Of a stretch of 64,000 nucleotides of DNA, positions 27,844 to 48,924 are shown piece after piece. How positions within the stretch are numbered: the first letter of the stretch is position 1; each line of letters begins with the position of its first letter. The translations under genes were made by a program, and so were the position numbers. The stretch is from Sulfuriferula nivalis (GTDB lineage: Bacteria; Pseudomonadota; Gammaproteobacteria; Burkholderiales; Sulfuriferulaceae), in assembly GCF_009937995.1 (NCBI RefSeq), contig NZ_AP021881.1, positions 1,922,001 through 1,986,000 of the forward strand, given 5' to 3'. A model generated the notes under the pieces. The model was given only the letters and a program-made list of their open reading frames with translations, made no database searches and was not told the DNA's origin.

Positions 27844-28757
27844 TTGACAGCCCCCACACCCATCCCCGCGCACTTCGAGCACAATCACCAGCGACTGCTG
27901 AATTGCCTCAAGCTCAGAGGCATGCAGCCTAAAACCATCGCCTTGTATTCACACGGCGTACGGCGCGCAGCGGTGTATTTTAATGACCAGATAGACGCGC
28001 TCACCAAGCCACAATTAACCGACTATTTTGTTCGCATCCTGGATACCCATTCATGGAGTACGCTCAAACATGATCTGTATGGACTGAAGTTCTATTATGC
28101 CCATGTACTCAGCCAACCCTGGCCAGGTGCGGATCTGGTTAAACCACCCAAGTCATATAGCCTGCCCGACATCATTACCGTCGCCCAGGCACAACAAATC
28201 TTCATGGCCACCCGCGTATTGAGCTACCGCGTATTCTTCTTCACCCTCTACAGCCTGGGCTTACGATTAGGCGAAGGCTTACGCTTGCAGGTAGGGGATA
28301 TCGATGCGGATCGGATGCGGGTGCAAGTACGCAACGCCAAAGGCAACCGTGATCGATTGGTGCCGTTATCAGAGAACACCTTGCAGGTATTGCGCCGTTT
28401 CTGGCTCACCCATCGCAACCCAAGCTTGCTCTTTCCTAATCGACACGGCGGTCTTGCCAAATCGCACTTGGCACGCACCCCGCTGGATCGTGGTGGTATC
28501 CAGACCACCTTGGGTCAAGTGACCCGTGACTGTGGCTTAAAAAAAGAATTACACCACACAGCCTGCGCCACAGCTATGCCACCCACCTGATAGAAGCTGG
28601 CATCGATTTACTCGAAATTCAGCAGATACTCGGACACCAGTCCATCCTCACCACCATCCGCTACACCCACCTCACCGAACAACGCCATCAGAGCGCACAC
28701 ACTCGCCTTAATCAATTAATGGAGAAATTCCACATTCATTGGGGCAAAGTCAAATGA
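27844..28757 (+). pseudogene. Tyrosine recombinase of the IS91-type element, frameshifted at an A7 run
   Basis: The first frame starts at a TTG (27844) behind GAGGAG and runs to 28590; the natural C-terminus is in the -1 frame from the seven-A run at 28539-28545 to the TGA at 28755-28757. Read across the shift, the protein has about 304 residues: an SAM-like N-terminal core-binding domain (about 10-95) and a catalytic domain with R in LGLRLGEGLRL, then [15 protein letters not shown] and [14 protein letters not shown], giving the R...HxxR...H/Y set. Without the shift the HxxR, H and Y residues are lost. Either programmed -1 slippage on A AAA AAA or a homopolymer mutation explains this. The gene's true end overlaps the transposase ATG (ATGA), which supports the joined reading. 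Confidence 0.8.
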
Positions 28758-29869
28758 TCAGACTGGCGCACATCGTAGCAACCTACGCAGCTAAACTGCT
28801 TGCACAACACGGTCATCACCTATTGCCCAGCCAGCAAGCTGCCTTAACCGCCTTTCAAACCTGCCGTAGCCAGATGAGCCCGAGGATGCAACTTGCCTGT
28901 GATGATTGTCAAACACCCAGCTACCTGCCACATTCCTGCGGTCATCGGCATTGCCCGCATTGCCAGGCGCACGAATCACAGCGCTGGATAGACCAGCAAT
29001 TACACAAATCCATCCCCGCCAACTACTTCATGCTCACCTTCACCGTGCCCGCCCAGTTGCGCACACTGGCCTGGCAACATCAGCGCGTCATGTATGACTT
29101 GATCACACGCTGCGCGTGGGAAACAGTCAACACCTTCAGCCAAAACGACAACAAGCTGCGCGGCAGCGCAGGGGCGGTGACTGTACTGCATACCCATAAC
29201 CGCCGACTGGACTATCACCCCCATGTGCATCTCGTCATGCCCGCTGTCGCCTTTAACCCCAAACAGCGACGCATGCGTCATAAACACGGCAACTACCTGT
29301 TTAACCACAAAGCCCTGGCCAAAGTATTTCGTGCCAAATTACTGGCAGGCATCAGACAAGCAGGACTCACCCTGCCAAACGATTACCCGACCGATTGGGT
29401 GGTGGATTGCAAAGCCGTCGGCACTGGACAGCACGCTCTGATCTACCTTGGGCGCTATCTGTATCGGGGGGTGATACAGGAGAAAGACATCCTCTCCGAC
29501 CGGCATGGTCAGGTCACCTTCCGTTACCGGAACAGCCAAACCAAACAAATGGAAACCCGTACCTTGAGTGGTGTAGCCTTCCTGCGACTGATACTGCAAC
29601 ACATTCTGCCCAAAGGCTACCGCCGCGCCCGCAACTTTGGCTACCTGCATCCCAATAGCAAACTACTCACCCAGCTACAGCTGACCCACCTATGGCGACG
29701 GAACAATCCGCCGCCAGCGCAACCCAGACCAGCGATACGTTGCCAATGTTGCGGTGGGGTGATGAAGATAGTGCGCACACGTATCAAAGCGATACCGCTA
29801 GCCACATCAGCCCCATCTATAAAACGGGAACACAGAGCAGATGACACAGGGTGGGAGACCATGCGCTAA
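28754..29869 (+). CDS. IS91/IS801-family rolling-circle transposase
   Basis: 371 residues from the ATG at 28754 (a TTG five codons earlier is in frame). An N-terminal zinc-binding region has CDDCQ and [10 protein letters not shown]; the HUH metal-binding motif is [10 protein letters not shown]; the nicking tyrosines are in [10 protein letters not shown]. The C-terminal part has a second CQCCGG pair. The enzyme cuts one strand and moves the element by rolling-circle replication. It is translationally coupled to the recombinase. Length and motifs look intact, so the element may still be mobile. Confidence 0.92.
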
Positions 29870-30178: not shown

Positions 30179-30184
30179 TTATAT
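30122..30184 (+). other. attC-like integron recombination site
   Basis: Order on the plus strand: GTCCAAC (30122-30128, fits RYYYAAC), GGTTCAGATTGTG (30133-30145), a TCGC-TTC-GCGA loop stem, CACAATCTAACC (30160-30171), GTTATAT (30178-30184, one mismatch to GTTRRRY). The long arms pair perfectly except for one extra C in the left arm, the bulged base that marks attC sites. The loop text resembles that of the aadA attC. On the minus strand the Mrr-type gene ends inside the outer box. No integron integrase or second site is seen. Confidence 0.6.
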
Positions 30185-31057
30185 TTCCTCAGAATCAAAA
30201 AAATCATTATCGATAACCTTTACTTCGTAATGGCTTTTAGTCTGCACACCAACGTTGAACTTATGCATCAGGTCAACAAGCTTAGAACCGTCCAATAAAA
30301 TTATTTTGTGGTGCGCATCTCTGGCTTTTACTTTTGCCTTTTCATCAAAAGTTGAAGTAGTCACAAAGATGCCCTTGTGGGTATCGCCACTCATAGCGCC
30401 GATAAAGTTGCGTATATCAGTTTCACGGACTTTATTTTCACTATAACGCTTAGCTTGAATATATATCCTCTCAAGCCCAAGCTGATCTTCGTTAATAATG
30501 CCATCGATCCCACCATCGCCTGACTTGGCCGTTTCTATAAAGTCGCCGTATCCCATTTTTTTAAGAAGAATCAAAATTATCTTTTCAAATGCATACGGAT
30601 CAACCTCTTTAAGCTTAGCAAGCAGTTCATCTTTTACTTCCCGCTCAATCTGCTCAAATCCAGAATCAATCAAATCCTGTGGGCTTGCGTTCGCTACGAT
30701 TGTTGTTTCTGGTGCAGACTTGCTTTCGGGCTCATAAAAGGTAATGACATTTGATTGAATCTCATTGAGTGATACATTTTCTGATTTGGCAGATTTCCCT
30801 TTCTCTGTGATCTGAACGTAGCCTCGTTGTGGATAGTGAACTAATCCGCCTTTCTTAAGATAGGACTTTCCCCAAGCAATACGATTTTCAATTAAACGAT
30901 CCCCACTTTTAGTAGTTTGCTCCAGCATCTCCTGAGGCAGGTTCGAATAAAACTGATCCACTACAAGCCGAACTAAATCTCTACCTTTGATGATTTCACC
31001 ATCTTTAAGCACTTCCAATATTGGAAGGAAGGTTTCATTAAACTTTGGCAATTCCAT
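30179..31057 (-). CDS. Mrr-type restriction endonuclease
   Basis: 292 residues. The N-terminal 90 residues form the Mrr_N winged-helix DNA-binding part (LPKFNETFLPILEVLKDGEII, GKSYLKKGGLVHYPQRGYVQIT). The C-terminal catalytic domain, about 145-280, has the PD-(D/E)xK variant GDGGIDGII...IYIQAKRY, that is D-x(n)-QAK, plus FVTTSTFDEKAK and IILLDGSKLVDLM. Mrr enzymes are type IV systems that cut foreign methylated DNA. The gene is solitary, AT-richer than its neighbours, flanked by an IS91-type element and an attC-like site, and so probably acquired. No methylase is adjacent. Confidence 0.92.
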   Translation of the reverse strand: MELPKFNETFLPILEVLKDGEIIKGRDLVRLVVDQFYSNLPQEMLEQTTKSGDRLIENRIAWGKSYLKKGGLVHYPQRGYVQITEKGKSAKSENVSLNEIQSNVITFYEPESKSAPETTIVANASPQDLIDSGFEQIEREVKDELLAKLKEVDPYAFEKIILILLKKMGYGDFIETAKSGDGGIDGIINEDQLGLERIYIQAKRYSENKVRETDIRNFIGAMSGDTHKGIFVTTSTFDEKAKVKARDAHHKIILLDGSKLVDLMHKFNVGVQTKSHYEVKVIDNDFFDSEEI

Positions 31058-31144: not shown

Positions 31145-31849
31145 CTAATCCGCTAAAGTCGCCAAAACCTGCTGAAACAAAGCCGCCTTAACCGCCTCAG
31201 GCGCTTTATTGATAGCCCCTATCCAGATCGGAAATATCGTCGCTTCTTCACGATATTCATGCTTAGATAAATAACCCGCCAAAATCGCCAGCAAGGGTGA
31301 AACACTGGTTGACGTAGCATCATCCTCATCAAAACTCAGTTCTATCATAATCGACTGATTGAGAATTTCGTTATGCTCTTGCATCATTGCGGCAGTTGGA
31401 TCGATGCCCATCGCGTTCGGCGGAGTGCGTATCGCTTTGGCAAGTATGTCGTGCTCAACGGCGAAGTGTTTGCGCAAGCCTTCGATAAACGCCCGCATGA
31501 TGGCATGGGCTTCGACCAGATGATTCTGGTCAGTCAGGTGTATCACTTGCGAGAACATGGCATCCAGCCGTTTATGGTCGCGTTTAAGCGAGTCAAACAC
31601 GTCCACCGGCGCCACATCTTCGGCGCGGTGGATGACGGTCAGCCAATGTCCCGCATCGGTACGGCTAATTTCCCAGCGTAAGTTATTACGCAACTGCAAA
31701 TTCAGGCTGTGCAGGGTAATCGCGGGATCTTCGGCGAACAATACGGTGGCGGTTTCGCCACGTGTCATGTCTTTAATTTCGTAGAACACCGCCGTTTGTA
31801 AATGGCTGGGCGCGGTTGCGGTCAAGTCACAATATTGCTCACTCATCAT
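31145..31849 (-). CDS. Hemerythrin-domain protein with N-terminal DUF2249-like part
   Basis: 234 residues. The first 75 or so (FYEIKDMTRGETATVLFAEDPAITLHSLNLQ...GHWLTVIHR) resemble the TusA-like DUF2249 domain. The rest is a hemerythrin HHE four-helix bundle: DHKRLDAMF, KHFAVEHDIL, EHNEIL and SKHEYREEATIFP supply the usual di-iron histidines and carboxylates. It probably binds oxygen or nitric oxide, or serves as an iron/redox sensor. It is the last gene of the tight operon 35385-31145, overlapping the large unknown gene by one base. Confidence 0.85.
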   Translation of the reverse strand: MMSEQYCDLTATAPSHLQTAVFYEIKDMTRGETATVLFAEDPAITLHSLNLQLRNNLRWEISRTDAGHWLTVIHRAEDVAPVDVFDSLKRDHKRLDAMFSQVIHLTDQNHLVEAHAIMRAFIEGLRKHFAVEHDILAKAIRTPPNAMGIDPTAAMMQEHNEILNQSIMIELSFDEDDATSTSVSPLLAILAGYLSKHEYREEATIFPIWIGAINKAPEAVKAALFQQVLATLAD

Positions 31850-33765
31850 TAAAACCCAAACATATGATCCATACAGAACGCGCTATCACCATTCACCATG
31901 CCGTGATAACCAAATAAACGACAAGTCACATCGCGAATAATAATGTAAGCACCATCGCCCGCACGTTGCCGCGTTGCTGTATCAAACACTTCGCTATAAC
32001 GCCAATGCAAAGAGCCACTGCAAGGAATAGAGATTTTGGTTTGTGCGATTTGTTCACCCATGCGGTTGAACAGGATCAAGTGCGTGTCAGATTGTGCATG
32101 CCAAGGCGTAGAAGCTGGATAAATCAGATGGCAGAAACTATCCAGCGGCGCATCTCCCAAACGCAGGAACAAACGTGTGCTCAAGCCAGGCGCTGCACCC
32201 ACATAAGACTGCGGCTCATTTTTATAGGTCATCACAGTATTAAACACATGACCGCCAAAGCTGGTTTCAGCGATATGGCCACTGCTACGCTGGGTATAGC
32301 GGAACAAGCCATGTAACCAGCCATCCGCCCCGCCACCTTGCGCGAAATCATAGACCAGCTCGACGTGACCAGAACCACTAGTCAACTTCGCCGCTTGCTC
32401 AGCCAAAATCGCATTCATATCCACCGCGACACTGTCACTGCGCTGCAAGCAGCCAAATGCATGACGCGCCACTTCCACACCAGTCGCATCGTAGAATATC
32501 GCCGCAATCGGCAAATCCACTTGCGCGGTAGACATGGGGTTAGGCTGCATCGTGCTTTGAAATTGTGCAACCGGCAATATAGGCGCAGGCAGGATATAGG
32601 ATTTACCTAATTGCTGAGTCAGATTCGGAATATTCGGGTCGATGACTAAATCGTTACGTTCAACGTTCACATGCGCCATACGGCTGCGGCCATTCTTCAC
32701 ATGGACTTCATAACGTGGACGCACAAAATAGCGCCCTGCCTGTACTTCCAGTTGCTGCGGCCAACGCACTTCAGGGAACAAGTCCGCCACATTCAGCGCG
32801 TAGCAGGCAAAAGGCGGAATGGCTGTCGGCACATAACGCACCTCATCTGAACCCATCAAATTGATCCCCACCGCATTGGCTGGAATAGGCACGGGATGGC
32901 TGTTTTGTACCCACATCACCACGGTTTCATCGTCTTTCGGTGCAGGCAGGCCTGCAAACAAATCCGATGGCCATGCATTCGCATCATGCGTACATGACAA
33001 CACCGTGTCATCATCGCCATACACATCCAGCGCATATTTAACGATGTCGTGCCGCGCCACGCCCAGCACATGGATAAACAACGATGCAGTAAAATCGCCC
33101 AGACCAAAACGTGCACGGACTTCCTGACTGTCAATGATCAGACTCGCGCCTGCAGCAGGAATCTGATCCTGCCACTGCGCCAATATCACACCCGACTGGT
33201 CAAACAGACAATACCAGACCCGCGGCACAGCAGGTGCGCCCAGACCAGACCAATAATCCGCCGTAATAATACGCGTATGCTGACCAGGCGCATCACGTAA
33301 AAAACCGAAGTTCGTGGCAAAGTTCAACGGATCCAAATAGCGATTAGCATTAGTCAACATTGCTGCAGGCAAGCGCAATTCATCCAGACTCAGCAAAGTC
33401 ACGCCTGCTGGAACAAGATGGCGGATATGATCCATTAATCTGCCCGCATCAAACGCCGTCACCAGCACAGTGCTTGCGCCAGAGGATGACAACGCTGTCA
33501 CAGGCTGTACACTATGACCCAGTACCACCTTGCCCAGATCCTCTACCCGCTGCACATATACGGATGCAATGTCCAAACTATCCAGCGGATAAAACTCATG
33601 CAAGCCTTCGGCCATGCCGTGAGGATCGTAAATAGCGACTTTGCCCACTGCACGTAATCGCGCATACAAGTCTGCTGCTTTCGCCACTGTAAGTGGATGA
33701 CCCAGCGCTTTGAAAAAACTATTGCCGCCCTTGGCGTTGCTAAACGTTTCTATTTTTAACGACAT
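31849..33765 (-). CDS. Conserved-looking 638-residue protein of unknown function
   Basis: I do not recognise this protein. The N-terminal 130 residues alternate helix and strand like a Rossmann-type domain (VAKAADLYARLRAVGKVAIYD, then SGASTVLVTAFDAGRLMDHI). From about 165 to the end it is rich in predicted beta strands with many W, Y and H residues and no low complexity; segments such as DYWSGLGAPAVPRVWYCLFD, FIHVLGVARHDIVKYALDVYGDD and SFGGHVFNTVMTYKNEPQSY look like structured, conserved motifs. No signal peptide or membrane helix is seen, so it is probably cytoplasmic. It sits between an ELM1-like gene (one base gap) and a hemerythrin gene (one base overlap), so it most likely works with them. 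Possible roles, in sugar or surface-polymer chemistry, are guesses. Confidence 0.8.
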   Translation of the reverse strand: MSLKIETFSNAKGGNSFFKALGHPLTVAKAADLYARLRAVGKVAIYDPHGMAEGLHEFYPLDSLDIASVYVQRVEDLGKVVLGHSVQPVTALSSSGASTVLVTAFDAGRLMDHIRHLVPAGVTLLSLDELRLPAAMLTNANRYLDPLNFATNFGFLRDAPGQHTRIITADYWSGLGAPAVPRVWYCLFDQSGVILAQWQDQIPAAGASLIIDSQEVRARFGLGDFTASLFIHVLGVARHDIVKYALDVYGDDDTVLSCTHDANAWPSDLFAGLPAPKDDETVVMWVQNSHPVPIPANAVGINLMGSDEVRYVPTAIPPFACYALNVADLFPEVRWPQQLEVQAGRYFVRPRYEVHVKNGRSRMAHVNVERNDLVIDPNIPNLTQQLGKSYILPAPILPVAQFQSTMQPNPMSTAQVDLPIAAIFYDATGVEVARHAFGCLQRSDSVAVDMNAILAEQAAKLTSGSGHVELVYDFAQGGGADGWLHGLFRYTQRSSGHIAETSFGGHVFNTVMTYKNEPQSYVGAAPGLSTRLFLRLGDAPLDSFCHLIYPASTPWHAQSDTHLILFNRMGEQIAQTKISIPCSGSLHWRYSEVFDTATRQRAGDGAYIIIRDVTCRLFGYHGMVNGDSAFCMDHMFGF

Positions 33766-33766
33766 A

Positions 33767-34717
33767 TCACCATCCTAATCTATGCTTAATTTCATCCGCC
33801 ACCCGCCGTGTTTCATCCAGCGGTTGATACTGCCAATGAGCTAACTCTCCCGTGAACGGACGCGTACAACCTCGCGCCTGCAAGCTACGGTGAAAGTCTT
33901 CAAATTTGTTAGTGCCACCGGTCAAGCCCGCCACATACACAGGCTTGCCAGTAAAACTCGCCTCCGATGCCATATTCACTGAATCTGCCGTGACCACCAG
34001 ATAATCAACCAGGGCTAAATATGCGTAATAGGGGTTTTCACTCACACCGTCCCATATTTTTGCGTCAGGTAAGCGTTGCCGCAACACTTCAACAACAGCA
34101 GCATCGGTACGCCGTGATGGCGTAATCAGTACCGTACCACCATGTTGTTGCTGCGACTGCTCCAGTTGATCCGCCAGATGCTCGGCAAAGCCGGCATCCA
34201 GCGTATATTTACGATTGCTGCCGCCCAGTAACACACCTATCAACGGCCGCGGCAAATTAGCATACTCGGCAGCAAACTTCTGTGACGCATCATCCAATCG
34301 CGCTTGCGTCACCCGATTCACCGCACCCAGCGTAGAAAATACATTTTCACCTTGCAAATCATCATGCTGTGGCGCGGCGATGATATCAAATTCACGCAGA
34401 CTCATTTGCGGATGTTGCACACGGATATTGACAGTACGCCCGCTACTGGCACGCTTGATCGCCACGGCCACCGCTGTATTCAAACGTCCCGTACCGATGA
34501 CCACATCTGGCCAGGGAGGCACAAAACTATCACTGCCCTCACCCAAAAAACGTAATGGTGACAGCCATAAATTCGGCGGCAAATACCGCCACGGCGCACT
34601 TGCAACAACGCGCTTTTTCACGCAGTCCAGACCCAGTGCCTCGGCCAAACCAAACGACTGGTTATCCATACCGACGATATCATTCGATAACACCCAAGCG
34701 ATGCGACGGGCACACAT
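33767..34717 (-). CDS. ELM1 / DUF1022 family protein (glycosyltransferase-like)
   Basis: 316 residues. It matches the bacterial 'mitochondrial fission ELM1' family: RIAWVLSNDIVGMDNQSFGLAEALG, VIGTGRLNTAVAVAIKR, PLIGVLLGGSNRKY and DYLVVTADSVNMASEASFTGKPVYV. The layout is that of a GT-B glycosyltransferase, with nucleotide-sugar-type residues in the VTADSVNMASEA segment, but bacterial members have no proven substrate. The start overlaps the oxygenase stop by one base (TGATG). Family assignment is sure, activity is inferred. Confidence 0.88.
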   Translation of the reverse strand: MCARRIAWVLSNDIVGMDNQSFGLAEALGLDCVKKRVVASAPWRYLPPNLWLSPLRFLGEGSDSFVPPWPDVVIGTGRLNTAVAVAIKRASSGRTVNIRVQHPQMSLREFDIIAAPQHDDLQGENVFSTLGAVNRVTQARLDDASQKFAAEYANLPRPLIGVLLGGSNRKYTLDAGFAEHLADQLEQSQQQHGGTVLITPSRRTDAAVVEVLRQRLPDAKIWDGVSENPYYAYLALVDYLVVTADSVNMASEASFTGKPVYVAGLTGGTNKFEDFHRSLQARGCTRPFTGELAHWQYQPLDETRRVADEIKHRLGW

Positions 34718-35385
34718 CAGCCGTTATATTCTTTGTTGCCAAATAATTTTTTGAAAAATGCAGACACACCATGACGCTTTTGCTCACGACGTTTGACTTG
34801 TTCATCCAGTACCCAATTCAATTGCAGTGCTTTACGCTCGCCTACAAATGGCTTGTGCCCATGCCAGGAATTATCACTGCGTTTAAATGCCAGCAATGTG
34901 CCTATGCTCGGCTCAACTTCAGCCACAAAATCATCCAGATCCTCGCCCGAACGCAACAAACGCAAACGCCCTGCTGATTCATGCCAAGTCTCATTGAAAT
35001 AAATCAGCATGGTAATGATTTTGGTTTTGCTGTCAGTATGAATACGACCATCAGTCTCATCAGTATGACCACGCACAGTTATCATGGTGGGACGACCAGT
35101 CAAATCCAGCTTGAATTTCTGCTCGACTGCATGACGAAATTCATCACCTTCGAGTTGCTGTATTAATTTGATAAATGCTGGGCCACAGTTCAGGGTATCC
35201 GCAGGAAAACTCCCTGCCTGTTTAATAGAGGGAAAATCACGCACGATATCCGCCAGCTTGTCCGTTTTAAGAAAGCCGGGCAACACCATGAATTCAAACG
35301 GATCTGAATTTAATTTAGTCGCACTGAATTTATCGATATCTATCATGTTTGCAGCTAATGTCGGTGTTTGCATAACGCTCATCAT
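34717..35385 (-). CDS. 2-oxoglutarate/Fe(II)-dependent oxygenase family protein
   Basis: 222 residues. The jelly-roll motif set is visible: the iron ligands HxD in GRIHTDSKTKI, the distal histidine in NSWHGHKPF, and the 2-oxoglutarate arginine in GERKALQLNW. Similar proteins hydroxylate proteins, sugars or small molecules; substrate unknown. It is the first gene of the operon that continues with the ELM1-like, unknown and hemerythrin genes, and is divergent from psd across 158 bases. Its C-terminus is basic (RREQKRHGVSAFFKKLFGNK). An alternative start lies four codons in (MQTPTL). Confidence 0.85.
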   Translation of the reverse strand: MMSVMQTPTLAANMIDIDKFSATKLNSDPFEFMVLPGFLKTDKLADIVRDFPSIKQAGSFPADTLNCGPAFIKLIQQLEGDEFRHAVEQKFKLDLTGRPTMITVRGHTDETDGRIHTDSKTKIITMLIYFNETWHESAGRLRLLRSGEDLDDFVAEVEPSIGTLLAFKRSDNSWHGHKPFVGERKALQLNWVLDEQVKRREQKRHGVSAFFKKLFGNKEYNG

Positions 35386-35543: not shown

Positions 35544-36395
35544 ATGTCCGATAAGCGCCACATCATCACTCAGCATTTACTTCCCAAACGTGCCATTACC
35601 GAATTCGGCTGGTACGTTGCCAATGCCAAAGCGGGACGCATTACCACCTCCATAATTCGCTGGTTTATCGGCAAATACAGCGTCAACATGGAGGAAGCAG
35701 TCAATCCTGACATCACCAGCTATGCCAGTTTTAACGAATTTTTCACACGTCCATTACAAGATGGCGCCCGGCCATTGGCGCAAGCCGATTTTGTCAGCCC
35801 TGTCGATGGCGCGATCAGCCAGTTAGGCAACATAGAACACGACCAGCTGTTGCAAGCCAAAGGGCACACCTACTCTACTCGTGCACTGGTTGGCGGCGAT
35901 GCCGAACTCGCCCTACAATTTGATCACGGCAGTTTTGCCACCATCTACCTTAGCCCCAAGGACTATCACCGTATCCACATGCCTTGCGATGGGCGCTTAA
36001 CACAAATGATCTATGTGCCGGGTGACCTATATTCGGTTAACCCTGCTACCGCACGCGGCGTACCAGGCTTATTCGCCCGTAACGAACGTGTCGTCTGTGT
36101 TTTTGATACGGCATACGGACCCATGGTACTCACTCTGGTAGGCGCTGCAATAGTGGGCAGCATGGAAACTGTATGGCACGGCACCGTCAACCCACCACGC
36201 ACCCGCAACGTGCGTACATGGCATTACCACGATCAAAACATCAACCTGAAAAAAGGCGAAGAAATGGGCCGTTTCCTGCTCGGCTCCACCGTTGTCATGT
36301 TGTTCACTAAAGATGCCATGCAATTCAATCCAGAATGGCACGCCGATCATACTGTACGCATGGGTGAAACGATGGGTAACCACCCGTCAATCTGA
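35544..36395 (+). CDS. psd: Phosphatidylserine decarboxylase proenzyme
   Basis: 283 residues, the prokaryotic type I length. Converts phosphatidylserine to phosphatidylethanolamine at the inner membrane. The self-cleavage motif LLGSTVVMLF near the C-terminus yields the pyruvoyl group from the serine. Other conserved parts: FNEFFTRPLQDGARP, VSPVDGAISQLG, YLSPKDYHRIHMPCDG. A TACAAT at 35509-35514 could be its -10 box, without a good -35. No strong ribosome site is visible before the ATG. Confidence 0.96.
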   Translation: MSDKRHIITQHLLPKRAITEFGWYVANAKAGRITTSIIRWFIGKYSVNMEEAVNPDITSYASFNEFFTRPLQDGARPLAQADFVSPVDGAISQLGNIEHDQLLQAKGHTYSTRALVGGDAELALQFDHGSFATIYLSPKDYHRIHMPCDGRLTQMIYVPGDLYSVNPATARGVPGLFARNERVVCVFDTAYGPMVLTLVGAAIVGSMETVWHGTVNPPRTRNVRTWHYHDQNINLKKGEEMGRFLLGSTVVMLFTKDAMQFNPEWHADHTVRMGETMGNHPSI

Positions 36396-37282: not shown

Positions 37283-38287
37283 TCAGCAAATTCTGGGCAA
37301 TGGATCATCTTCCAGTTCATCCAGTATGCGCGTGCCACCCAGAGGCGTATGCAATACGACCTCTACTCGTCCCGGCTGTAAATAACCTATCTGTGCTGCA
37401 TCCTTGCCATCTGGCAGCTTACGCCATGCATCAAGCGCAACGGCGGCATCACTTTCAGCCACCACGGCAACAACCCGACCTTCACACGCCAGATAATAGG
37501 GATCGTAACCTAACATTTCACATACGGCTGATACCGGATCCCTCACAGGTATAGCTGACTGCTGCAGATTAACTTGCAATCCAGTGGCATGGCTGATTTC
37601 GCATGCAACGGTAGCCAGTCCGCCACGAGTAGGGTCACGCATGAAGCGCAGCCCAGGCAATCCCAGCAACGCCTGTGTCAGTGGTAATACACAGGCACTA
37701 TCCGATGCCAGCTCACCTTTAAGTCCAAACTGCTCACGCGCCAGCATCACTGCAATACCGTGGTCACCCACTGGACCAGAGACCAGTATCACATCGCCTG
37801 CCTGTATCGTTTGCATACCGAGCGTTACCCCTGGCGTGCGCACACCTATGCCCGCAGTTGCCAGATACAACCCGCCACCTTCGCCGCGCCGCACCACCTT
37901 GGTATCACCTGCTACCACCACCACACCAGCAGCTTTGGCGGCACGTGCCAGACTGGCAATAATGCGATCCAGTTGCGCCAGCGGCAAGCCCTCTTCAATA
38001 AAAGCATTCAACGACAGATAACGTGGTGTTGCACCCGATACCGCCAGATCATTCACCGTTCCATGCACCGCCAGACTGCCTATATCGCCACCGGGAAACT
38101 CCAGCGGCTGCACTGTAAAGCCATCGGTAGTAAACATCAGCTCGCCCGCATCCCACGGCAACCGTGCTGCATCAACATTCACATCCAACAATGGATTACC
38201 CAGATGACGCGCAAAAACCCGCTCTATCAGTTCACGCATATAGCGCCCACCATTGCCATGCGCCAGAGTAATGTAGGCATCAGTCAT
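37283..38287 (-). CDS. hypE: [NiFe] hydrogenase maturation protein HypE (carbamoyl dehydratase)
   Basis: 334 residues. HypE dehydrates the thiocarboxamide delivered by HypF to a thiocyanate on its C-terminal cysteine, then passes cyanide to iron on HypCD. The essential terminal PRIC motif is present as the last four residues. AIR-synthase/PurM-like ATP-binding motifs include GNGGRYM, DGFTVQPLEFPGGDIG and VSGPVGDHGIAVML. Overlaps hypF by eight bases and is last in the hypCABDFE operon. Confidence 0.97.
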   Translation of the reverse strand: MTDAYITLAHGNGGRYMRELIERVFARHLGNPLLDVNVDAARLPWDAGELMFTTDGFTVQPLEFPGGDIGSLAVHGTVNDLAVSGATPRYLSLNAFIEEGLPLAQLDRIIASLARAAKAAGVVVVAGDTKVVRRGEGGGLYLATAGIGVRTPGVTLGMQTIQAGDVILVSGPVGDHGIAVMLAREQFGLKGELASDSACVLPLTQALLGLPGLRFMRDPTRGGLATVACEISHATGLQVNLQQSAIPVRDPVSAVCEMLGYDPYYLACEGRVVAVVAESDAAVALDAWRKLPDGKDAAQIGYLQPGRVEVVLHTPLGGTRILDELEDDPLPRIC

Positions 38288-40517
38288 GTCGACTTCCCAT
38301 TTCTATAATTTGTCCAAAGCTAATACCGCCATCATTGACAGGCACTTGCCGCGCCAGCTTGACCTGTAAACCAGCAGCAGTCAGCAAATTCACCACCATT
38401 TCGGTCAGCCGATGATTCTGAAACACGCCACCGGCCAGCCCGATACACCGCACTGCATGCTTCTCCTGTACTGCTCTCACTTGTGCCAGCAACGCATGAG
38501 CGAGACTGGTATGAAACAGATCAGCACGCTGACTCACGCTCAACGTTGTATCCAGCAGCATCTTTACCAATGGTGCCCAATCGCTACGCCATATGCCATG
38601 CTCATCAAGACTCAACGGTAAATCTATCACTGCACACGCATTTCCCGTACTCGCAGCTTCCAGCCACATCGGCCCTTGCCCTTCATAGCTTGCATGCGTT
38701 ACCAAACCAGTCAATGCAGCCGCTGCATCAAACAGCCGGCCGACTGCTGACGTTTGCTGCGTATTAATGCGCCGTTGCCAGGCCGTATGTACCAGATCGC
38801 CATCTGTGGGCAAAGCCGGACTATCCATCCCTATCTCCCAGCTCATAGCAGCCGCAGCACGCCAGGGCTCACGCCCAGCAACATCACCACCCGGCAGATG
38901 AAACGGACGCATGCTCGCTACCCGCTCCCAGCTGCCAGGCTTGCCTAACAACGCCTCGCCACCCCACATAGCACCATCCTCACCATAGCCTACACCATCC
39001 CAAGTGAATACCAGCCAGTCATGCAGCTCTTGATATTCCCCAACCAATGCCGAAGCATGGGCATGATGATGAAACACGGAGCTTACTTTCAGGCCACTGG
39101 CTCGTGCCCAGCGACTGCTGGCATAACTGCTATGCGCATCACACACTACGCGACTGGCAGTAACGTTATACAACTTTTGCAAATCAGCAATGACCTGTTC
39201 AAACACCACCATAGATCGCAGTGAACCCAAATCGCCTATATGCGGCGATATCACTACTCGCCGATCCCAGGCCAGCGCAATGGTATTTTTAGTATGCCCA
39301 CCGACTGCCAGTACTGGCGTCTCCAGTGTAAACGGCAGATTCAGTTCCAGTGGCGCACAACCACGCCCCAATCGCAATGGTCGCGGCACACCAGCGCTCA
39401 TACGAAATACAGGATCGTCAGCCGGACGCACTATCTTTCTGTCATGATGCAAAAAAACGTCAGCCACACCAGCCAATCTGGTTTCGGCTTCAGTATTGTC
39501 TGTTAATACAGGTTCACCACAGATATTGGCCGACGTTACCACCAATGGCGCATCGAAATCCGCCAACAGTACGTGATGTAACGGGCTATAAGGCAGCATG
39601 ATGCCAACTTCCACCAAACCTGGCGCCACTTCTGTCGCCAGGCCGTTATTAGTTTTTTGTTGAAGTAATAAAATCGGACGTAACGGACTAGACAGAAATT
39701 CCGCTTCGGTGTCAGTCATTTCAACAGCCTGTTGCGCACTCATCAAATCAGGAAACATCACTGCCAGTGGCTTATGTGGACGCACTTTACGTGCTCGCAA
39801 TCTCGCCACAACCACATCTGACTTGGCATCACACAGCAAGTGATAACCACCCACGCCTTTTACGGCCACAATTTGCCCCGCTCGCAATGCTGCAACTGCA
39901 GCCACTAAGGCACTCTCACCGCTTAATCTGAGTCTGTCATTCTGAAATAACAGTTGTGGACCACACTGGGGACATGCGACTGGCTCGGCATGAAAGCGTC
40001 TATCCAGTGGATTTTCGTATTCGGCACGACATGCTGGGCACAGATTGAACTCCCGCATACTGGTCGCAGCCCTGTCATAAGGCAAAGCATTAATCAGCGT
40101 ATAACGCGGGCCACACTGTGTGCAATTGATGAATGGATATCGATATCGCCTGTCATAAGGTTCGAACAGCTCAGACAGACATTCATCGCAAGTAAAGTAA
40201 TCGGGGGGCACATGAATGTCAGCGGGCACATTACCCACACTGGGACGAATAGTAAAACCTGTCATCCCCGCCAAATCAGTTTGCATCTGCGCCCGTAAGT
40301 CGGGTTGAGACAAAGGCGGCGCTTCATCAATCAAGGCTGTGGCAAAACCAGCCAAATTTCGCAAACTGCCTTCCACATGTATTTCCACCTGCCCTAGCTG
40401 ATTCTGTACCCAGCCGTGCAAATCAAAACGCTGTGCCAGCCGATAGACAAATGGGCGAAAACCCACACCTTGCACCCGTCCAGCCACCACAAAATGCAAA
40501 GCACGCAGTTGACTCAA
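38280..40517 (-). CDS. hypF: [NiFe] hydrogenase maturation carbamoyltransferase HypF
   Basis: About 745 residues from a TTG at 40517 that overlaps the hypD stop (TTGA) and gives LSQLRALHFVVAGRVQGVGFRPFVYRLAQ, the normal HypF N-terminus; the frame extends 15 codons further to another TTG. Domains in order: acylphosphatase (1-90), a zinc-finger pair (CDECLSELF...CTQCGPRYT and CPACRAEY...CPQCGP), the YrdC-like domain (about 195-370), and a Kae1-like carbamoyltransferase domain with HHHAHASALVGEY metal-binding histidines and LAGGVFQN. It makes carbamoyl-AMP from carbamoyl phosphate and loads HypE. Confidence 0.95.
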   Translation of the reverse strand: MSQLRALHFVVAGRVQGVGFRPFVYRLAQRFDLHGWVQNQLGQVEIHVEGSLRNLAGFATALIDEAPPLSQPDLRAQMQTDLAGMTGFTIRPSVGNVPADIHVPPDYFTCDECLSELFEPYDRRYRYPFINCTQCGPRYTLINALPYDRAATSMREFNLCPACRAEYENPLDRRFHAEPVACPQCGPQLLFQNDRLRLSGESALVAAVAALRAGQIVAVKGVGGYHLLCDAKSDVVVARLRARKVRPHKPLAVMFPDLMSAQQAVEMTDTEAEFLSSPLRPILLLQQKTNNGLATEVAPGLVEVGIMLPYSPLHHVLLADFDAPLVVTSANICGEPVLTDNTEAETRLAGVADVFLHHDRKIVRPADDPVFRMSAGVPRPLRLGRGCAPLELNLPFTLETPVLAVGGHTKNTIALAWDRRVVISPHIGDLGSLRSMVVFEQVIADLQKLYNVTASRVVCDAHSSYASSRWARASGLKVSSVFHHHAHASALVGEYQELHDWLVFTWDGVGYGEDGAMWGGEALLGKPGSWERVASMRPFHLPGGDVAGREPWRAAAAMSWEIGMDSPALPTDGDLVHTAWQRRINTQQTSAVGRLFDAAAALTGLVTHASYEGQGPMWLEAASTGNACAVIDLPLSLDEHGIWRSDWAPLVKMLLDTTLSVSQRADLFHTSLAHALLAQVRAVQEKHAVRCIGLAGGVFQNHRLTEMVVNLLTAAGLQVKLARQVPVNDGGISFGQIIEMGSRHD

Positions 40518-41614
40518 GCGACTTTCGCCTCTCTGACACCACTGGCCCACCAGATGCGGCAAGCACCCTCATCCGATACCATGCACGGCCCCACTGGCGT
40601 GCGCGGGGTACAGGCGCTGCCATACAGGCGACACTGGTCAGGATAAATCTTGCCGAGTACAACTTGCGCGCAGTCGCATCCAGGTGGCATTTCTCCTGCA
40701 CGTTTACGCACAGGGTCTTCATAAGTAGGAAAACACAATCTAGCATTATGCAGGGACAGTGTCGATTTCAGACCAAAACCAGAGGCAGGAATCACTCCCA
40801 CACCACGCCAGTTTGCATCCACCACATCCATCATTTGCGCCAGTTGGCGACGCGCACTCACATTACCAGCGGGACGCACCAGTTGTGGATAGCAATTATC
40901 GAGAAATGGGCGATCAGCCAGTAACTGACGCAACACGGAGTAAGTCGCCGCCAGCAATGATTCAGGCGTAAATCCGGCCACAGCAGCAGGCAATCCGTGC
41001 TGAGTGGGCACAAAATCCCATTCATCCGCACCCATGATAGTGGCGACGTGACCTGGCGCAATCAACGCATCGAAACCTGGCTTACCCGCCTCTAGCAACA
41101 TAGCGACAGCAGGCCAGGTAAGGCGACCCGACAACAACACTGACAAATTCGGTGGTACACCTGCTGCCAACATGGCCGCAACAGGTGCAGTGGTAGTCTC
41201 AAAACCAGCGGCAAAAAATACCACCGGCACATCTGCATTATCACGCGCAATCTGTACTGCTTCCGTTGGACTCGCAATTGGTCGTATATCCGCACCAGCA
41301 GCGCGTGCAGCATCCAGTGAACGCGGTTCGCCCTTAGGTACATTGACAGGTACGCGCAGCATATCGCCGAACGCCACTAATATTATCTTCTCGTTGAGTG
41401 CCAACTGTATTGCCTGATACACATCTTCTTCCGGACAGATACACACGGGACAGCCCGGTCCGGGAATCAGCTCTATATTTTTCGGCAATGCACCGCGTAA
41501 CCCAGCCATGGTGATAGACCGTTCATGACCACCACAGACATTCATAATCTTGACGCGCTCGGGCAGATCCAGTGCACGAATTTGCTGTAACCAGTAAGCG
41601 GCATCGTGCTGCAT
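40514..41614 (-). CDS. hypD: [NiFe] hydrogenase maturation protein HypD
   Basis: 366 residues. HypD carries a 4Fe-4S cluster and, with HypC, is the scaffold on which the Fe(CN)2CO unit is built. Conserved features: MNVCGGHERSITMAGLRGALP, ELIPGPGCPVCICPEEDV, PVVFFAAGFETTTAP, and the C-terminal cysteine cluster CDCAQVVLGKIYPDQCRLYG and CTPRTPVGPCMVSDEGAC. Its start overlaps the hypB stop by one base (TGATG). Confidence 0.97.
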   Translation of the reverse strand: MQHDAAYWLQQIRALDLPERVKIMNVCGGHERSITMAGLRGALPKNIELIPGPGCPVCICPEEDVYQAIQLALNEKIILVAFGDMLRVPVNVPKGEPRSLDAARAAGADIRPIASPTEAVQIARDNADVPVVFFAAGFETTTAPVAAMLAAGVPPNLSVLLSGRLTWPAVAMLLEAGKPGFDALIAPGHVATIMGADEWDFVPTQHGLPAAVAGFTPESLLAATYSVLRQLLADRPFLDNCYPQLVRPAGNVSARRQLAQMMDVVDANWRGVGVIPASGFGLKSTLSLHNARLCFPTYEDPVRKRAGEMPPGCDCAQVVLGKIYPDQCRLYGSACTPRTPVGPCMVSDEGACRIWWASGVREAKVA

Positions 41615-42426
41615 CAGCTCACCTCAGCGTGGCCATGGAGTTTCAAACCATCTGTTTGTATGTACGGCTTAACCGTTTGTCCGGCCAATACACGAGCACG
41701 TTGTGCAACGAGCTCACTACGCAGCCAGTCATACCAAGCCGCCATACCCTGCCCCTTGCGTGCAGAAAGCTGTAACAGCGGCACCGTACTCGCCAGTTGA
41801 CGCAGACACTGCTCGGCACGCGCTGGAACAAAATCATCCAGCACGGCTAACAAATCTATCTTGCTCAGCACCACCACATCAGCGGCACGGAACATAACAG
41901 GGTATTTAGCAGGTTTATCATCGCCCTCGGTCACCGAAAGCAAAGTGACATTACGATGCTGCCCCAGATCGAAACTCGCCGGGCACACCAGATTGCCGAC
42001 GTTTTCAACAAACAGAATATCCACCTGAGACAAATCCAGATGATGGAGTGCATCATGCACCATATGTGCATCAAGATGGCAGGCACTGCCCGTAGTGATT
42101 TGATAAGCGGGCACACCACGAGCACGGATGCGCGCCGCATCATTTTCGGTTTCCAGATCACCTTCGATAACAGCAATTCGAAATTCATCCTTGAGTGCAT
42201 CGATGGTCGCTTCCAGCAAAGCCGTCTTGCCCGAACCAGGTGAAGACATCAGATTGATGGTGAGTATGCCACGGGTGTCAAAATGGCTGCGATTGTGCCC
42301 AGCCTGATCATCATTATGTGCCAGCAATTTTTTTAGTACAGTCACCGCACTCGTGCCCGCCTGCACTGGCTTATAAGCCAGATGCTGGTTACCTGGTGTC
42401 ACATTGCAGCCACAGCTATCACACAT
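41614..42426 (-). CDS. hypB: [NiFe] hydrogenase nickel-insertion GTPase HypB
   Basis: 270 residues. It has the N-terminal CDSCGC nickel-binding motif, no long histidine-rich store, and a SIMIBI GTPase domain with Walker A SSPGSGKTALLEAT, EGDLETENDAARI, SACHLDAHMV (metal site) and SKIDLL. It delivers nickel to the large subunit together with HypA. The lack of a polyhistidine tract implies a chaperone rather than nickel-storage role. It lies nine bases downstream of hypA. Confidence 0.97.
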   Translation of the reverse strand: MCDSCGCNVTPGNQHLAYKPVQAGTSAVTVLKKLLAHNDDQAGHNRSHFDTRGILTINLMSSPGSGKTALLEATIDALKDEFRIAVIEGDLETENDAARIRARGVPAYQITTGSACHLDAHMVHDALHHLDLSQVDILFVENVGNLVCPASFDLGQHRNVTLLSVTEGDDKPAKYPVMFRAADVVVLSKIDLLAVLDDFVPARAEQCLRQLASTVPLLQLSARKGQGMAAWYDWLRSELVAQRARVLAGQTVKPYIQTDGLKLHGHAEVS

Positions 42427-42435
42427 GAGCCATCC

Positions 42436-42783
42436 TTAATTTGTAATCAATTCCAGATTCGCCAGCAGCATTTCATCACCGCTGATCAGTTGGGTATGAT
42501 AATCCCCACACTCGCCGCACAACAATCGATTAGGCGTAGCTTCTGTATCTGCACCACAAGTCTGACAGTGCACGCGGACTGGCTGGGACTCTATGATCAA
42601 CTGGGCTTCAGCCGCCACCGTCCCTGCTGCGGCCAGGGGGAAAGCGCTTACCAGCAACGCTGGCTCGACACCTGACAATGCACCAATATGCAAAGTAATA
42701 ACAGCCACACTTTGCGCAAAATTTTGCTGGGCAATCTCAGTCACCTGAGTCACCAGCGCCTGACAGACTGCCAATTCATGCAC
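42436..42783 (-). CDS. hypA: [NiFe] hydrogenase nickel chaperone HypA
   Basis: 115 residues. The N-terminal MHELAVCQALV supplies the nickel-binding Met-His, and the zinc site is formed by CQTCGADTEATPNRLLCGECG (two CxxC). It binds nickel and docks with HypB for insertion into the HupL precursor. It overlaps hypC by eight bases. Confidence 0.96.
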   Translation of the reverse strand: MHELAVCQALVTQVTEIAQQNFAQSVAVITLHIGALSGVEPALLVSAFPLAAAGTVAAEAQLIIESQPVRVHCQTCGADTEATPNRLLCGECGDYHTQLISGDEMLLANLELITN

Positions 42784-43018
42784 GATGCATAGCCGATTCT
42801 ATTGCCAGCATTTCGTCGTAAAGCTCCCATGCGCTTTGTGCTTCTGCCTCACTCATGGTCTGTATGGCATAGCCGACATGCACCATGACGTAATCACCTA
42901 CCGCAGGCATTTCATCCTGCAGCAGAAACAGGTTTACTTCACGTGCAACGCCCTTGGCAGCGGCCTGGGCGAGGAAACCATCAATGGTAGTAATTTGCAT
43001 GGGTATGGCTAGACACAT
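42776..43018 (-). CDS. hypC: [NiFe] hydrogenase assembly chaperone HypC
   Basis: 80 residues starting MCLAIPMQI, the invariant HypC motif whose Cys2 binds the iron. A five-stranded barrel follows with VNLFLLQDEMPAVGDYVMVHVGYAI. HypC works with HypD and then escorts the iron unit to the large subunit. It is the first gene of the hyp operon; a TATACT box on the minus strand at 43043-43048 is a possible -10. The 151-base gap to hupD on the other side holds the divergent control region. Confidence 0.97.
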   Translation of the reverse strand: MCLAIPMQITTIDGFLAQAAAKGVAREVNLFLLQDEMPAVGDYVMVHVGYAIQTMSEAEAQSAWELYDEMLAIESAMHRA

Positions 43019-43169
43019 GATGCACCTCGGTTAATTCAGCACAGTATAGCCCTGATAAAGCCAGAATAACATGCTAAAAAAGTCATGATTAATTCATTAG
43101 GTTGTTATTAAAATTTGGCGTAGTATCATTAACCTTACTCCCATTACTGGAATGTCTTAGTATAACTTT

Positions 43170-43637
43170 ATGGTTACTCTAGTGCTCGGTATAGGCAACA
43201 CCCTGCTCTGCGACGAAGGCGTGGGGGTTCATGCGGTACGTGCACTCGCACAAGATCATTCCCACCTGACTGACGTAGAATTTATGGACGGTGGCACACT
43301 CAGTTTTTCCCTTGCTGGCGATGTTGAAGATGCCAGCCAACTCATCATTATTGACGCTGCCGAGCTGGATGATGCACCAGGTACGGTACGTGCATTTGTT
43401 GGTGAGGATATGGACAAATTTCTCGGTGTCAACCGTAAACGCAGCGTGCATGAAGTTGGCTTGCTTGATCTGATGGCTGTCGCACTTCTGGCTGGCCACC
43501 TGCCCGAACGCCGCGCTCTGATCGGCATACAGCCTGACATAGTAGACTGGGGCGACGCACCCACCACAGCCGTTGCACTTGCGATACCGCAAGCCTGTGA
43601 CATGACGTTAGCATTGATTGCAGGATGGCGCACATGA
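43170..43637 (+). CDS. hupD: Hydrogenase maturation protease HupD/HyaD
   Basis: 155 residues. This nickel-dependent endopeptidase removes the C-terminal tail of the large subunit after metal insertion. Conserved: LGIGNTLLCDEGVGVHAV (nickel-ligand glutamate) , FMDGGTLSFSL, and HEVGLLDLMAV with the ligand histidine. First gene of the structural operon. The ATG has no obvious ribosome site and TATAAC lies only three bases before it, so the translation start context is unusual. Confidence 0.95.
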   Translation: MVTLVLGIGNTLLCDEGVGVHAVRALAQDHSHLTDVEFMDGGTLSFSLAGDVEDASQLIIIDAAELDDAPGTVRAFVGEDMDKFLGVNRKRSVHEVGLLDLMAVALLAGHLPERRALIGIQPDIVDWGDAPTTAVALAIPQACDMTLALIAGWRT

Positions 43638-44068
43638 GCACACTAGACCAAATCAGCGTAAAAATCATCAATCCACTGTCGACTCAGGCAACTCAGGCAG
43701 ATGGCCTATCCGGCAATGCCGATGCCATCCTGCATGAAATTGTCGCGCTATTGGAAGCCTATACAAGCACTGGGGAAATGGGAGCAATTGATCTACGCAG
43801 CCTGCCCCTTACGCCTGCTGACTATGAGCTGCTGCGTGACACACTGTCTGAAGGCGAAGTCCATGCGCATATCAATGCGATAGGCAACTCAGATATACAT
43901 GAGACCTGTTATCCAGGCGTATGGTGGCTGACTTATTACAATGCAGACGGCGATACCGTGGCCGAGTTATTAGAAATTACCAGCGTTCCCCAAATATTAA
44001 AAGCACCCGAGGAAGATATGCGTGAAGGATTAGCCCGTTTACGCGACCGATTAACGCAATTGGAATAG
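43634..44068 (+). CDS. hupH: Hydrogenase accessory protein HupH/HyaF-like
   Basis: 144 residues from the ATG at 43634, which overlaps the hupD stop (ATGA); three codons more are in frame upstream. The C-terminal half is the HupH_C domain: VHAHINAIGNSDIHETCYPGVWWLTYYN and DTVAELLEITSVPQILKAPEEDMREGLARLRDRL. HupH/HyaF proteins help small-subunit or oxygen-tolerant enzyme maturation. Full HyaF-type proteins are about 280 residues and hold two such repeats; this one is the short form. Confidence 0.88.
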   Translation: MSTLDQISVKIINPLSTQATQADGLSGNADAILHEIVALLEAYTSTGEMGAIDLRSLPLTPADYELLRDTLSEGEVHAHINAIGNSDIHETCYPGVWWLTYYNADGDTVAELLEITSVPQILKAPEEDMREGLARLRDRLTQLE

Positions 44069-44089
44069 CACTGGAGGGAGAAACAAACA

Positions 44090-45154
44090 ATGAACGAACC
44101 CGATACCCTGGGCGCAAGCCTGACACGTAGCGGCGTTAGCCGGCGATCCTTTCTCAAATTCTGCACCGCCATGGCTTCATTGATGGCATTACCTCCCAGC
44201 GCTGCTTATGCCATGGCTGACGCACTCAATCGAGCTCAACGCCAGTCGGTGATATGGCTATCATTTCAGGAATGCACCGGCTGTGTGGAGTCACTAACGC
44301 GTTCTTTCGATCCAACGCTGGAACAGATGATATTTGAAATGATCTCGCTGGATTATCAGGAGACGCTGCAAGCTGCATCTGGTGAAGCTGCTGAATTAGC
44401 ACGTAAACAGGCAATGAAATCATCTTATGGCAAATATGTGCTGATAGTTGACGGCTCCATTCCCACCAAGGACGGTGGCGTATATTCTACGATAGCAGGT
44501 ATATCCAACTACGACATGCTGGTCGAGACCGCCAAAGGCGCCGCTGCCATCGTCGCCGTGGGCACCTGTTCTGCATACGGTGGCATTCCTCACGCCAACC
44601 CCAATCCGACGGGTGCAGTAGCCGTATCAGATATCATCAAAGACAAGCCGATCATGAATGTGCCGGGCTGCCCGCCTATACCATCGGTGATTGCCGGCGT
44701 ACTGGCCTATTTCGTCACCTACGGCAAACTGCCGGAACTCGATCACATCGGCCGACCCAAAGTGTTCTTCGCCGATACCATCCATGACCGTTGCTACCGT
44801 CGACCATTTTACGATCAAGGCAAGTTTGCCAAGACCTTCGACGACGAAGGCGCGCGCAATGGCTGGTGTCTGTATGAGCTAGGCTGTAAAGGCCCAACCA
44901 CTTACAACGCCTGTGCCACAATTAAATGGAATGGTGGCATCAGCTTCCCCATCGAATCTGGGCACGGTTGTCTGGGTTGTTCCGAACCCAATTTCTGGGA
45001 TAAAGGCAGCTTTTACCAGCCACTTCCCACGCCACTCGCCGACAATGCACCCGTCATTGCCGCGGCGACTCTGGGCGGAATCGCAGTAGGCACAGTTGCC
45101 GCGGTCGTCTCGCGCAAACACCAAGCCGACATCAGTACGAAAGAGGAGAAATAG
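44090..45154 (+). CDS. hupS: [NiFe] hydrogenase small subunit
   Basis: 354 residues. A Tat signal (SRRSFLKFC at about residue 15) exports the folded dimer across the inner membrane. Cysteines for three iron-sulfur clusters: CTGCVE (proximal, C-x2-C), GTCSAYGGIP, GCPPIP, then DRCYRRPFYDQG, CLYELGCKGPTTYNAC and CLGCSEPNFWD. The proximal cluster lacks the extra cysteines of the oxygen-tolerant group 1d as far as I can see. A C-terminal membrane anchor (VIAAATLGGIAVGTVAAVV) is present. GGAGGG precedes the ATG. Confidence 0.96.
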   Translation: MNEPDTLGASLTRSGVSRRSFLKFCTAMASLMALPPSAAYAMADALNRAQRQSVIWLSFQECTGCVESLTRSFDPTLEQMIFEMISLDYQETLQAASGEAAELARKQAMKSSYGKYVLIVDGSIPTKDGGVYSTIAGISNYDMLVETAKGAAAIVAVGTCSAYGGIPHANPNPTGAVAVSDIIKDKPIMNVPGCPPIPSVIAGVLAYFVTYGKLPELDHIGRPKVFFADTIHDRCYRRPFYDQGKFAKTFDDEGARNGWCLYELGCKGPTTYNACATIKWNGGISFPIESGHGCLGCSEPNFWDKGSFYQPLPTPLADNAPVIAAATLGGIAVGTVAAVVSRKHQADISTKEEK

Positions 45155-45155
45155 C

Positions 45156-47167: not shown

Positions 47168-48924
<1,757 letters not shown>

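Follow-up and report, generated by a model that had tools for sequence, protein, structure and literature searches.

The window analyzed here is a 64,000 nt stretch of DNA from Sulfuriferula nivalis (contig NZ_AP021881.1, positions 1,922,001–1,986,000), and positions are counted from its first letter. It has a block of four genes whose products are termed OxyA, ELM1, BIG and HHE. The core of this block is the pair ELM1 and BIG, and the dependence is one-way in that BIG is rarely found without ELM1. We lean toward the view that the block is a lipopolysaccharide (LPS) inner-core module, which would consist of a KdoT-like transferase (ELM1), a new conserved protein family (BIG) and an optional oxygenase (OxyA), with a hemerythrin gene (HHE) attached. 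The four genes are as follows:

34717–35385, minus strand: OxyA, 222 aa, a 2-oxoglutarate (2OG)-Fe(II) oxygenase that is prolyl-4-hydroxylase (P4H)-like, by Pfam PF13640, alignment and PDB profile matches.
33767–34717, minus strand: ELM1, 316 aa, a GT-B-type protein of the ELM1 family with an SRRT motif, by Pfam PF06258.
31849–33765, minus strand: BIG, 638 aa, a protein of an unnamed family with a predicted N-terminal alpha/beta domain (residues ~1–135), then beta-rich domains.
31145–31849, minus strand: HHE, 234 aa, a hemerythrin protein with a DUF2249-like N-terminus, by Pfam PF01814.

BIG is present in 15 of 18 Sulfuriferula genomes and ELM1 is present in the same 15. The three genomes without BIG are also without ELM1, i.e., G234 (96% complete), G243 (77%) and G244 (75%), and two of these three joint absences fall in incomplete genomes. 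All four genes are found together, with order and strand kept, in 12 genomes of the genus besides that of the window. The spaces between BLAST match ends in these 12 genomes are 2–98 bases, mostly less than 30, with one exception (G239) where BIG and HHE are 1133 bases apart. Two additional genomes (G233 and G230) show the same gene order interrupted by contig ends. The linkage of the genes in the genus exceeds chance, and the survey for conservation as a block, which the original prediction for this DNA had proposed, finds the whole block in most Sulfuriferula members.

Outside the genus, a pattern scan of species genomes gives at least 573 confirmed BIG stretches, where two search patterns were used and one BIG gene may count twice. 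The locus set consists of the best 80 of these stretches, is biased toward the window sequence, and comes to 83 loci with L020–L022. Approximately 58 of the best 80 are from Alphaproteobacteria (Azospirillum, Pelagibius, Rhodospirillales and others); the remainder are from Beta- and Gammaproteobacteria or are unspecified, and one is titled Anaerolineae. BIG is found in 4 of 229 genomes of a class sample, the genome of the window included, and in 3 of 349 genomes of a phylum sample. The family is scattered through Proteobacteria and is uncommon. A plasmid-borne system was considered and rejected, as tblastn with BIG shows no match in the plasmid collection.

ELM1 is in the fetched stretch of 69 of the 83 BIG loci, OxyA is in 49, and both are in 47. 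Where the stretch extends 3.5 kb or more upstream (66 loci), ELM1 is seen in 59 and OxyA in 41. Of the 14 BIG loci that do not show ELM1 in the stretch, two (L089 and L108) have OxyA at contig ends and 12 have neither gene. Eleven of the genomes represented by these 12 loci encode ELM1 on another contig or at another place. The same search matched all three control loci with a known adjacent ELM1, for a total of 14/15. Some of the distant cases reflect contig breaks only; G627 has a contig break, with ELM1 and the BIG start on the second contig. Five of the six Azospirillum loci L182–L187 have their distant ELM1 accompanied by OxyA and a second oxygenase. The three other BIG genomes of the class sample have ELM1 adjoining BIG or one gene away, and in the phylum sample ELM1 is present in 3 of 3 BIG genomes compared with 61 of 346 others. 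ELM1 itself is often found without BIG.

A tree of 131 ELM1 proteins, which is a quick tree with several long branches and where near-copies favor clustering of this kind, requires 8 changes of the label "BIG present" compared with 41.5 on average after shuffling (none of 500 shuffles reached so low a number). The 33 loci that have BIG, ELM1 and TrxB give distance correlations of 0.46 for BIG-ELM1 and 0.13 for BIG-TrxB. In the 25 loci that also have OxyA, the values are 0.48 (BIG-OxyA), 0.39 (BIG-ELM1), 0.29 (BIG-TrxB), 0.50 (ELM1-OxyA), 0.24 (OxyA-TrxB) and 0.57 (ELM1-TrxB). In 32 loci with GreA they are 0.35 (BIG-ELM1), 0.21 (BIG-GreA) and 0.43 (ELM1-GreA). These comparisons give moderate support to the evolution of BIG with its partners, and ELM1 tracks its vertical neighbors as well.

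The ELM1 protein of the window matches Pfam PF06258 (Mito_fiss_Elm1) at 2.9e-100, with residues 16–314 on positions 2–304 of the 304-position profile, and its translation has the SRRT motif. All 78 aligned ELM1 rows that come from BIG genomes, 77 of them distinct, have SRR[TS]; rows with less than 75% coverage were left out of this alignment. A possible biochemical precedent is KdoT of Acinetobacter baumannii. Passages of a report on this protein describe the transfer of a third 3-deoxy-D-manno-oct-2-ulosonic acid (Kdo) onto Kdo2-lipid IVA in vitro, the importance of R180 in the SRRT motif, and complementation of a kdoT mutant by Acinetobacter homologues and partially by a Rickettsia homologue (PMC12856342). 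Earlier genetics of KdoT (A1S_2903) are in PMC10936431, where passages give it as ELM1-like by InterPro. The likeness to the window protein consists of this label, a size of ~35 kDa compared with 316 aa here, and the SRRT motif. In contrast to ELM1, KdoT works with GnaT in a lipooligosaccharide core locus, and the passages of the two papers mention no BIG or 2OG oxygenase partner.

Gene context provides additional links to LPS in some Beta- and Gammaproteobacteria. The order waaA-ELM1-BIG is found in L073, L074 and L111 (WaaA by Pfam PF04413), and L058 has waaA (by tblastn) with BIG immediately after it. WaaA (KdtA), a Kdo transferase, is next to BIG or the pair ELM1-BIG in these four loci of Gammaproteobacteria; it differs from ELM1 in that it represents a separate family, and the WaaA match of the present genome is outside the window. 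OxyA is linked with LPS-type genes at L020 and L048. Genes of glycosyltransferase families 4 and 9 (GT4 and GT9) or of O-antigen-ligase type are downstream of BIG in L020, L045, L048, L052, L053 and L067; the counts in the 83 loci are 6 (GT4 type), 4 (GT9) and 3 (O-antigen-ligase type), with the labels confirmed by Pfam for L045, L048 and L052. Fourteen ELM1 loci of the class that are without BIG show WaaA in four and the same GT4 type in six. A lipid A acyltransferase is confirmed by Pfam in L169 and L137, the two loci tested. The labels "WaaL" at L137 and L138 and "CarB" at L167 look spurious and were not counted, and clusters on the opposite strand over known genes were taken as antisense open reading frames of GC-rich DNA. 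The original prediction had offered modification of a sugar or surface polymer as one reading, and this gains support from the Kdo transferase activity described for KdoT (PMC12856342) together with the waaA and LPS neighbors.

BIG was predicted to have no known family, and this stands: the window protein has no match in Pfam or NCBIfam at E ≤ 1, and BIG profiles have no match among PDB sequences. When 66 members were scanned singly, there were isolated weak Pfam matches in one or two members (best 0.016) and one weak NCBIfam match (0.0066, in 1 of 66). The N-terminal domain gives matches to Pfam and PDB at chance level only. No paper on BIG was found in the open-licence literature, where the family has no name to search by. 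The alignment of 66 sequences has 107 invariant columns, the other sequences being 49–87% identical to that of the window, and a segment at positions 257–266, S-C-x-H-D-x-N-x-W-P, is mostly invariant, with C258, H260, D261, N263 and W265 among the invariant residues. This number of invariant columns suggests that BIG is an enzyme or a tightly fitted partner. The protein is presumably cytoplasmic, because there is no obvious signal peptide by eye. Structure prediction for the 638-residue protein, a check set beforehand, gives a confident AlphaFold model from the 66-sequence alignment (predicted local distance difference test, pLDDT, 92.8; predicted template modeling score, pTM, 0.92), in which a predicted alpha/beta domain extends to about residue 135 and is followed by beta-rich domains. 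A Foldseek comparison with the PDB and viral sets shows no whole-length relative among the best 50 of 1400 and the best 50 of 1067 matches. The matches within these are mostly chained beta-sandwich or Ig-like proteins, including sialidase and glycoside hydrolase family 2 (GH2) chains, at TM-scores ≤ 0.15, which are uninformative, and a fold match for BIG was rejected. Internal repeats are at best a weak resemblance between D3 and D4 (hhalign probability 72.5%); the D2-D3 and D12 repeat scores are void, as residues are shared by overlapping slices. One genome, G650, holds two BIG copies, with ELM1-BIG and no OxyA in the stretch at L076 and ELM1-OxyA-BIG at L200.

OxyA is a frequent but optional third member. 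It matches Pfam 2OG-FeII_Oxy_3 (PF13640) at 3.7e-9, with 37.8 bits and a cut-off of 27. The HxD motif (H116, D118), H175/H177 and R184 are invariant in nine aligned sequences and are presumably of the Fe(II)/2OG ligand type, as in the superfamily. The OxyA profile matches the PDB hydroxylases 9blq and 9ei6, and EGLN1 weakly, and there is an NCBIfam match to the peptide-modifying YhhC that is below the cut-off. Of 34 genomes with an OxyA-less BIG locus, 22 were searched for OxyA elsewhere, many of these being incomplete metagenome-assembled genomes (MAGs); four have a strong match (> 290 bits), seven have a weak match (< 40 bits) and 11 have none. Several of the seven weak matches are nearer to the second oxygenase than to OxyA, and the strong match in G650 belongs to its second cluster, ELM1-OxyA-BIG. 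The second oxygenase-like gene (Oxy2) is located between ELM1 and OxyA in nine Azospirillum loci (L055, L062, L064, L068, L070, L080, L083, L084 and L114). For Oxy2 of L080, the one tested, a Pfam search at 0.001 gives nothing, and its relatives are ~28% identical to part of OxyA.

A comparison can be made with KdoO (PF11004, Kdo-3-hydroxylase), an inner-core hydroxylase. Passages on this enzyme describe conversion of Kdo to D-glycero-D-talo-oct-2-ulosonic acid (Ko), a reaction that uses Fe(II), 2-oxoglutarate and O2 and takes place between the steps of the Kdo transferase and of WaaC (PMC8533242). OxyA would be a functional analogue of KdoO at most, as it is of a different family and no similarity is detected between them with the shallow profiles available. 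Homology of OxyA to KdoO was looked for by the Pfam search and the comparison of these profiles and was not found. PF11004 is found in 0 of 18 genomes of the genus, a search in which the control genomes gave no match either. It is found in 20 of 229 class genomes, which indicates that the search works, and in 0 of the 4 BIG genomes of the class sample, which are too few to prove anything.

HHE is the exceptional member of the block. It matches Pfam PF01814 at 2.3e-12, with 48 bits and a cut-off of 25.3, and residues H92, H128, E132, H159, H197 and E201, which we take to be iron ligands, are invariant in 12 aligned sequences. DUF2249 is matched by 7 of these 12 copies (best 9e-4). HHE is present in 17 of the 18 genomes of the genus, including G234 and G243, both of which are without BIG and ELM1, and also in other genera that have no BIG (G255, G273 and G278). 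Among the 83 BIG loci, it is in the fetched stretch of eight, all from Sulfuriferula, and a ninth (L047) is cut by a contig end. HHE therefore seems to be outside the conserved core and to be attached to the module only in this genus, and a strict four-gene system is ruled out by this distribution. Separate occurrence of the genes in relatives with no co-occurrence, which the original prediction had regarded as contrary evidence, is seen for HHE but not for OxyA, ELM1 and BIG. No support was found for the suggested oxygen control. HHE shares the hemerythrin domain and HxxxE ligand-type motifs with DUF2249-hemerythrin and RIC/YtfE proteins. It differs from RIC/YtfE in being far under the cut-off of NCBIfam TIGR03652 (25.5 vs. 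204.7 bits), and HHE is found with or without the module. Several genomes of the genus (G229, G231, G234, G235, G236, G237 and G243) have an additional HHE paralogue that is more divergent and is located on a separate contig or a long way from the first copy.

The chemistry that may be proposed from the observed gene linkage, co-occurrence and motif has three steps. ELM1, as a KdoT-like GT-B enzyme, would transfer an ulosonic acid of the Kdo type to Kdo-lipid A on the cytoplasmic side of the inner membrane, as its family, the SRRT motif and the gene context suggest. BIG would act on this sugar too. It may be a transferase or a modifying enzyme, in which case its N-terminal alpha/beta domain may bind a cofactor or an activated donor, or it may serve as a platform for the lipid-linked acceptor. 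Where present, OxyA would hydroxylate the added residue or a neighboring one with Fe(II), 2-oxoglutarate and O2. HHE may be a genus-specific passenger or an accessory that responds to oxygen or nitric oxide (NO). A more specific form of the proposal is tentative, i.e., that BIG represents a new class of LPS core protein that builds, together with the KdoT-like transferase, an undescribed inner-core residue by a route unrelated to KdoO. Similarly speculative is the identity of this residue, which may be an ulosonic acid that is hydroxylated or modified in another way, and its presence in many Azospirillum-like Alphaproteobacteria as well as in scattered Beta- and Gammaproteobacteria. ELM1-like proteins of bacteria are annotated with the term "mitochondrial fission", and the work on KdoT has only recently begun to show what they do. 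Among them, one branch travels with a strongly conserved unnamed family, often with an oxygenase. This provides a testable hypothesis for an unassigned protein of plant-associated and environmental bacteria, and for diversification of the LPS inner core.

A number of observations weigh against an LPS inner-core module. The 53 aligned ELM1 rows from BIG-less genomes have SRRT in 48, TRRT in one, SPRT in three and SART in one; the motif therefore does not single out the module and appears to mark the ELM1 family. The link between the window ELM1 and KdoT consists of the published family label together with the motif, and the donor may be a sugar other than Kdo. BIG is found in G625 (L058) with no detectable ELM1, the ELM1-TrxB distance correlation is 0.41 in the same 33 loci where BIG-ELM1 is 0.46, and the BIG fold shows no functional match. 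OxyA has no Pfam match to PF11004/KdoO at E ≤ 1, and a comparison with three PF11004 proteins of the class gives an hhalign probability of 0.2%, with both profiles shallow. The loci L058, L073, L074 and L111 seem to come from a single group of related gammaproteobacterial MAGs. They are without OxyA, as are the 3 of 3 of their genomes tested, so that hydroxylation is less supported by context and represents the weaker part of the proposal. A single genus (g260) supplies three of the four WaaA-linked and three of the six GT4-linked ELM1 loci that are without BIG. In most Alphaproteobacterial loci the module is located between carB-greA and trxB-LysR, a position that says nothing about LPS and is uninformative. 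Taken over the 60 ELM1 loci fetched from the phylum sample, WaaA is present in four and GT4 in 12. The neighbors in the window itself, psd, an IS91-type transposase and mrr, are not LPS genes.

Some of these points also bear on other explanations. The module may modify another surface or intracellular glycan, such as an exopolysaccharide, a capsule, a glycolipid or a glycoprotein, e.g., flagellin, in which case the nucleotide sugar used by ELM1 would be a different one. Divergent branches are present in the ELM1 family, with several copies in some genomes, the BIG-associated ELM1 proteins largely cluster apart on the tree, and in most Alphaproteobacterial loci no LPS gene is recognized beside the module, all of which would agree with such a role. 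It is nevertheless thought unlikely, since the recognized glycan neighbors include the LPS genes for WaaA, lipid A acyltransferase, the GT9 heptosyltransferase family and the O-antigen ligase family, and since the arginines important in KdoT are retained. Modification of protein, where OxyA would hydroxylate BIG, or else a ribosomal or envelope protein, at a residue that ELM1 would glycosylate, is regarded as quite improbable. The P4H-like character of OxyA, with its matches to PDB hydroxylases, the weak one to EGLN1 and the sub-cut-off one to YhhC, is in its favor, and collagen is a reported precedent of hydroxylation followed by glycosylation. However, 18 of the 22 genomes searched, many of them incomplete MAGs, have no strong OxyA, so that BIG seems to work without it, and the acceptor demonstrated for KdoT in the passages on its activity is a lipid (PMC12856342).

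A joint system of all four products that responds to oxygen or NO is consistent with the tight spacing and with the four-gene order kept in the genus. It is largely refuted by the distribution of HHE, which among BIG loci is confined to those of the genus and elsewhere is found in genomes with neither BIG nor ELM1 and in BIG-less genera, and very little weight is given to it. It is also highly unlikely that the trio is linked merely by an old conserved chromosomal position with no functional tie. The genes carB, greA and trxB are recurrent Alphaproteobacterial neighbors, and the same position also holds ELM1 without BIG, as such a link would predict. But the trio or pair recurs elsewhere, beside dnaK, waaA, LPS-type clusters and psd; 3 of 18 members of the genus lack both BIG and ELM1; and ELM1 is present where BIG lies elsewhere. 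The LPS inner-core module remains the favored reading of the block.

The joints within the block are as originally predicted, with four open reading frames on the minus strand, matching coordinates and spacing near one base. From reading of the sequence, OxyA and ELM1 have a one-base overlap (TGATG), ELM1 and BIG have a one-base gap (TGA-T-ATG), and BIG and HHE have a one-base overlap (TAATG). Strict co-production had been deduced from these joints, but one-base overlaps are commonplace in bacterial operons and do not prove it alone. The family names given at the same time hold by Pfam for 2OG-FeII_Oxy_3, Mito_fiss_Elm1 and Hemerythrin, and DUF2249 is not matched at E ≤ 1 by the HHE copy of the window. 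Scans at the block show no excess of promoters (7 sites vs. 6.5 in shuffles) or terminators (6 sites vs. 5.7).

The next gene downstream of HHE, which has the same orientation and is in a stretch of lower GC, is a gene for an Mrr-type restriction endonuclease (30179–31057), which has no match in the 18 loci compared around the block. A recombinase of the phage integrase family (PF00589) is found beside the IS91-type transposase (Y2_Tnp and a zinc-binding domain) at 27844–29869, ~1.3 kb from the block. On the OxyA side, a phosphatidylserine decarboxylase gene (psd, 35544–36395) is divergent from OxyA, likewise in the closest relative (L023/L038), and dnaK is in the place of psd at eight other loci of the genus. 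Farther along, the region 37283–48924 has HypE- and HypF-like genes (read by eye), a HypB-family GTPase gene (41614–42426, Pfam) and a gene for the large subunit of a nickel-dependent hydrogenase (47164–48924, Pfam).

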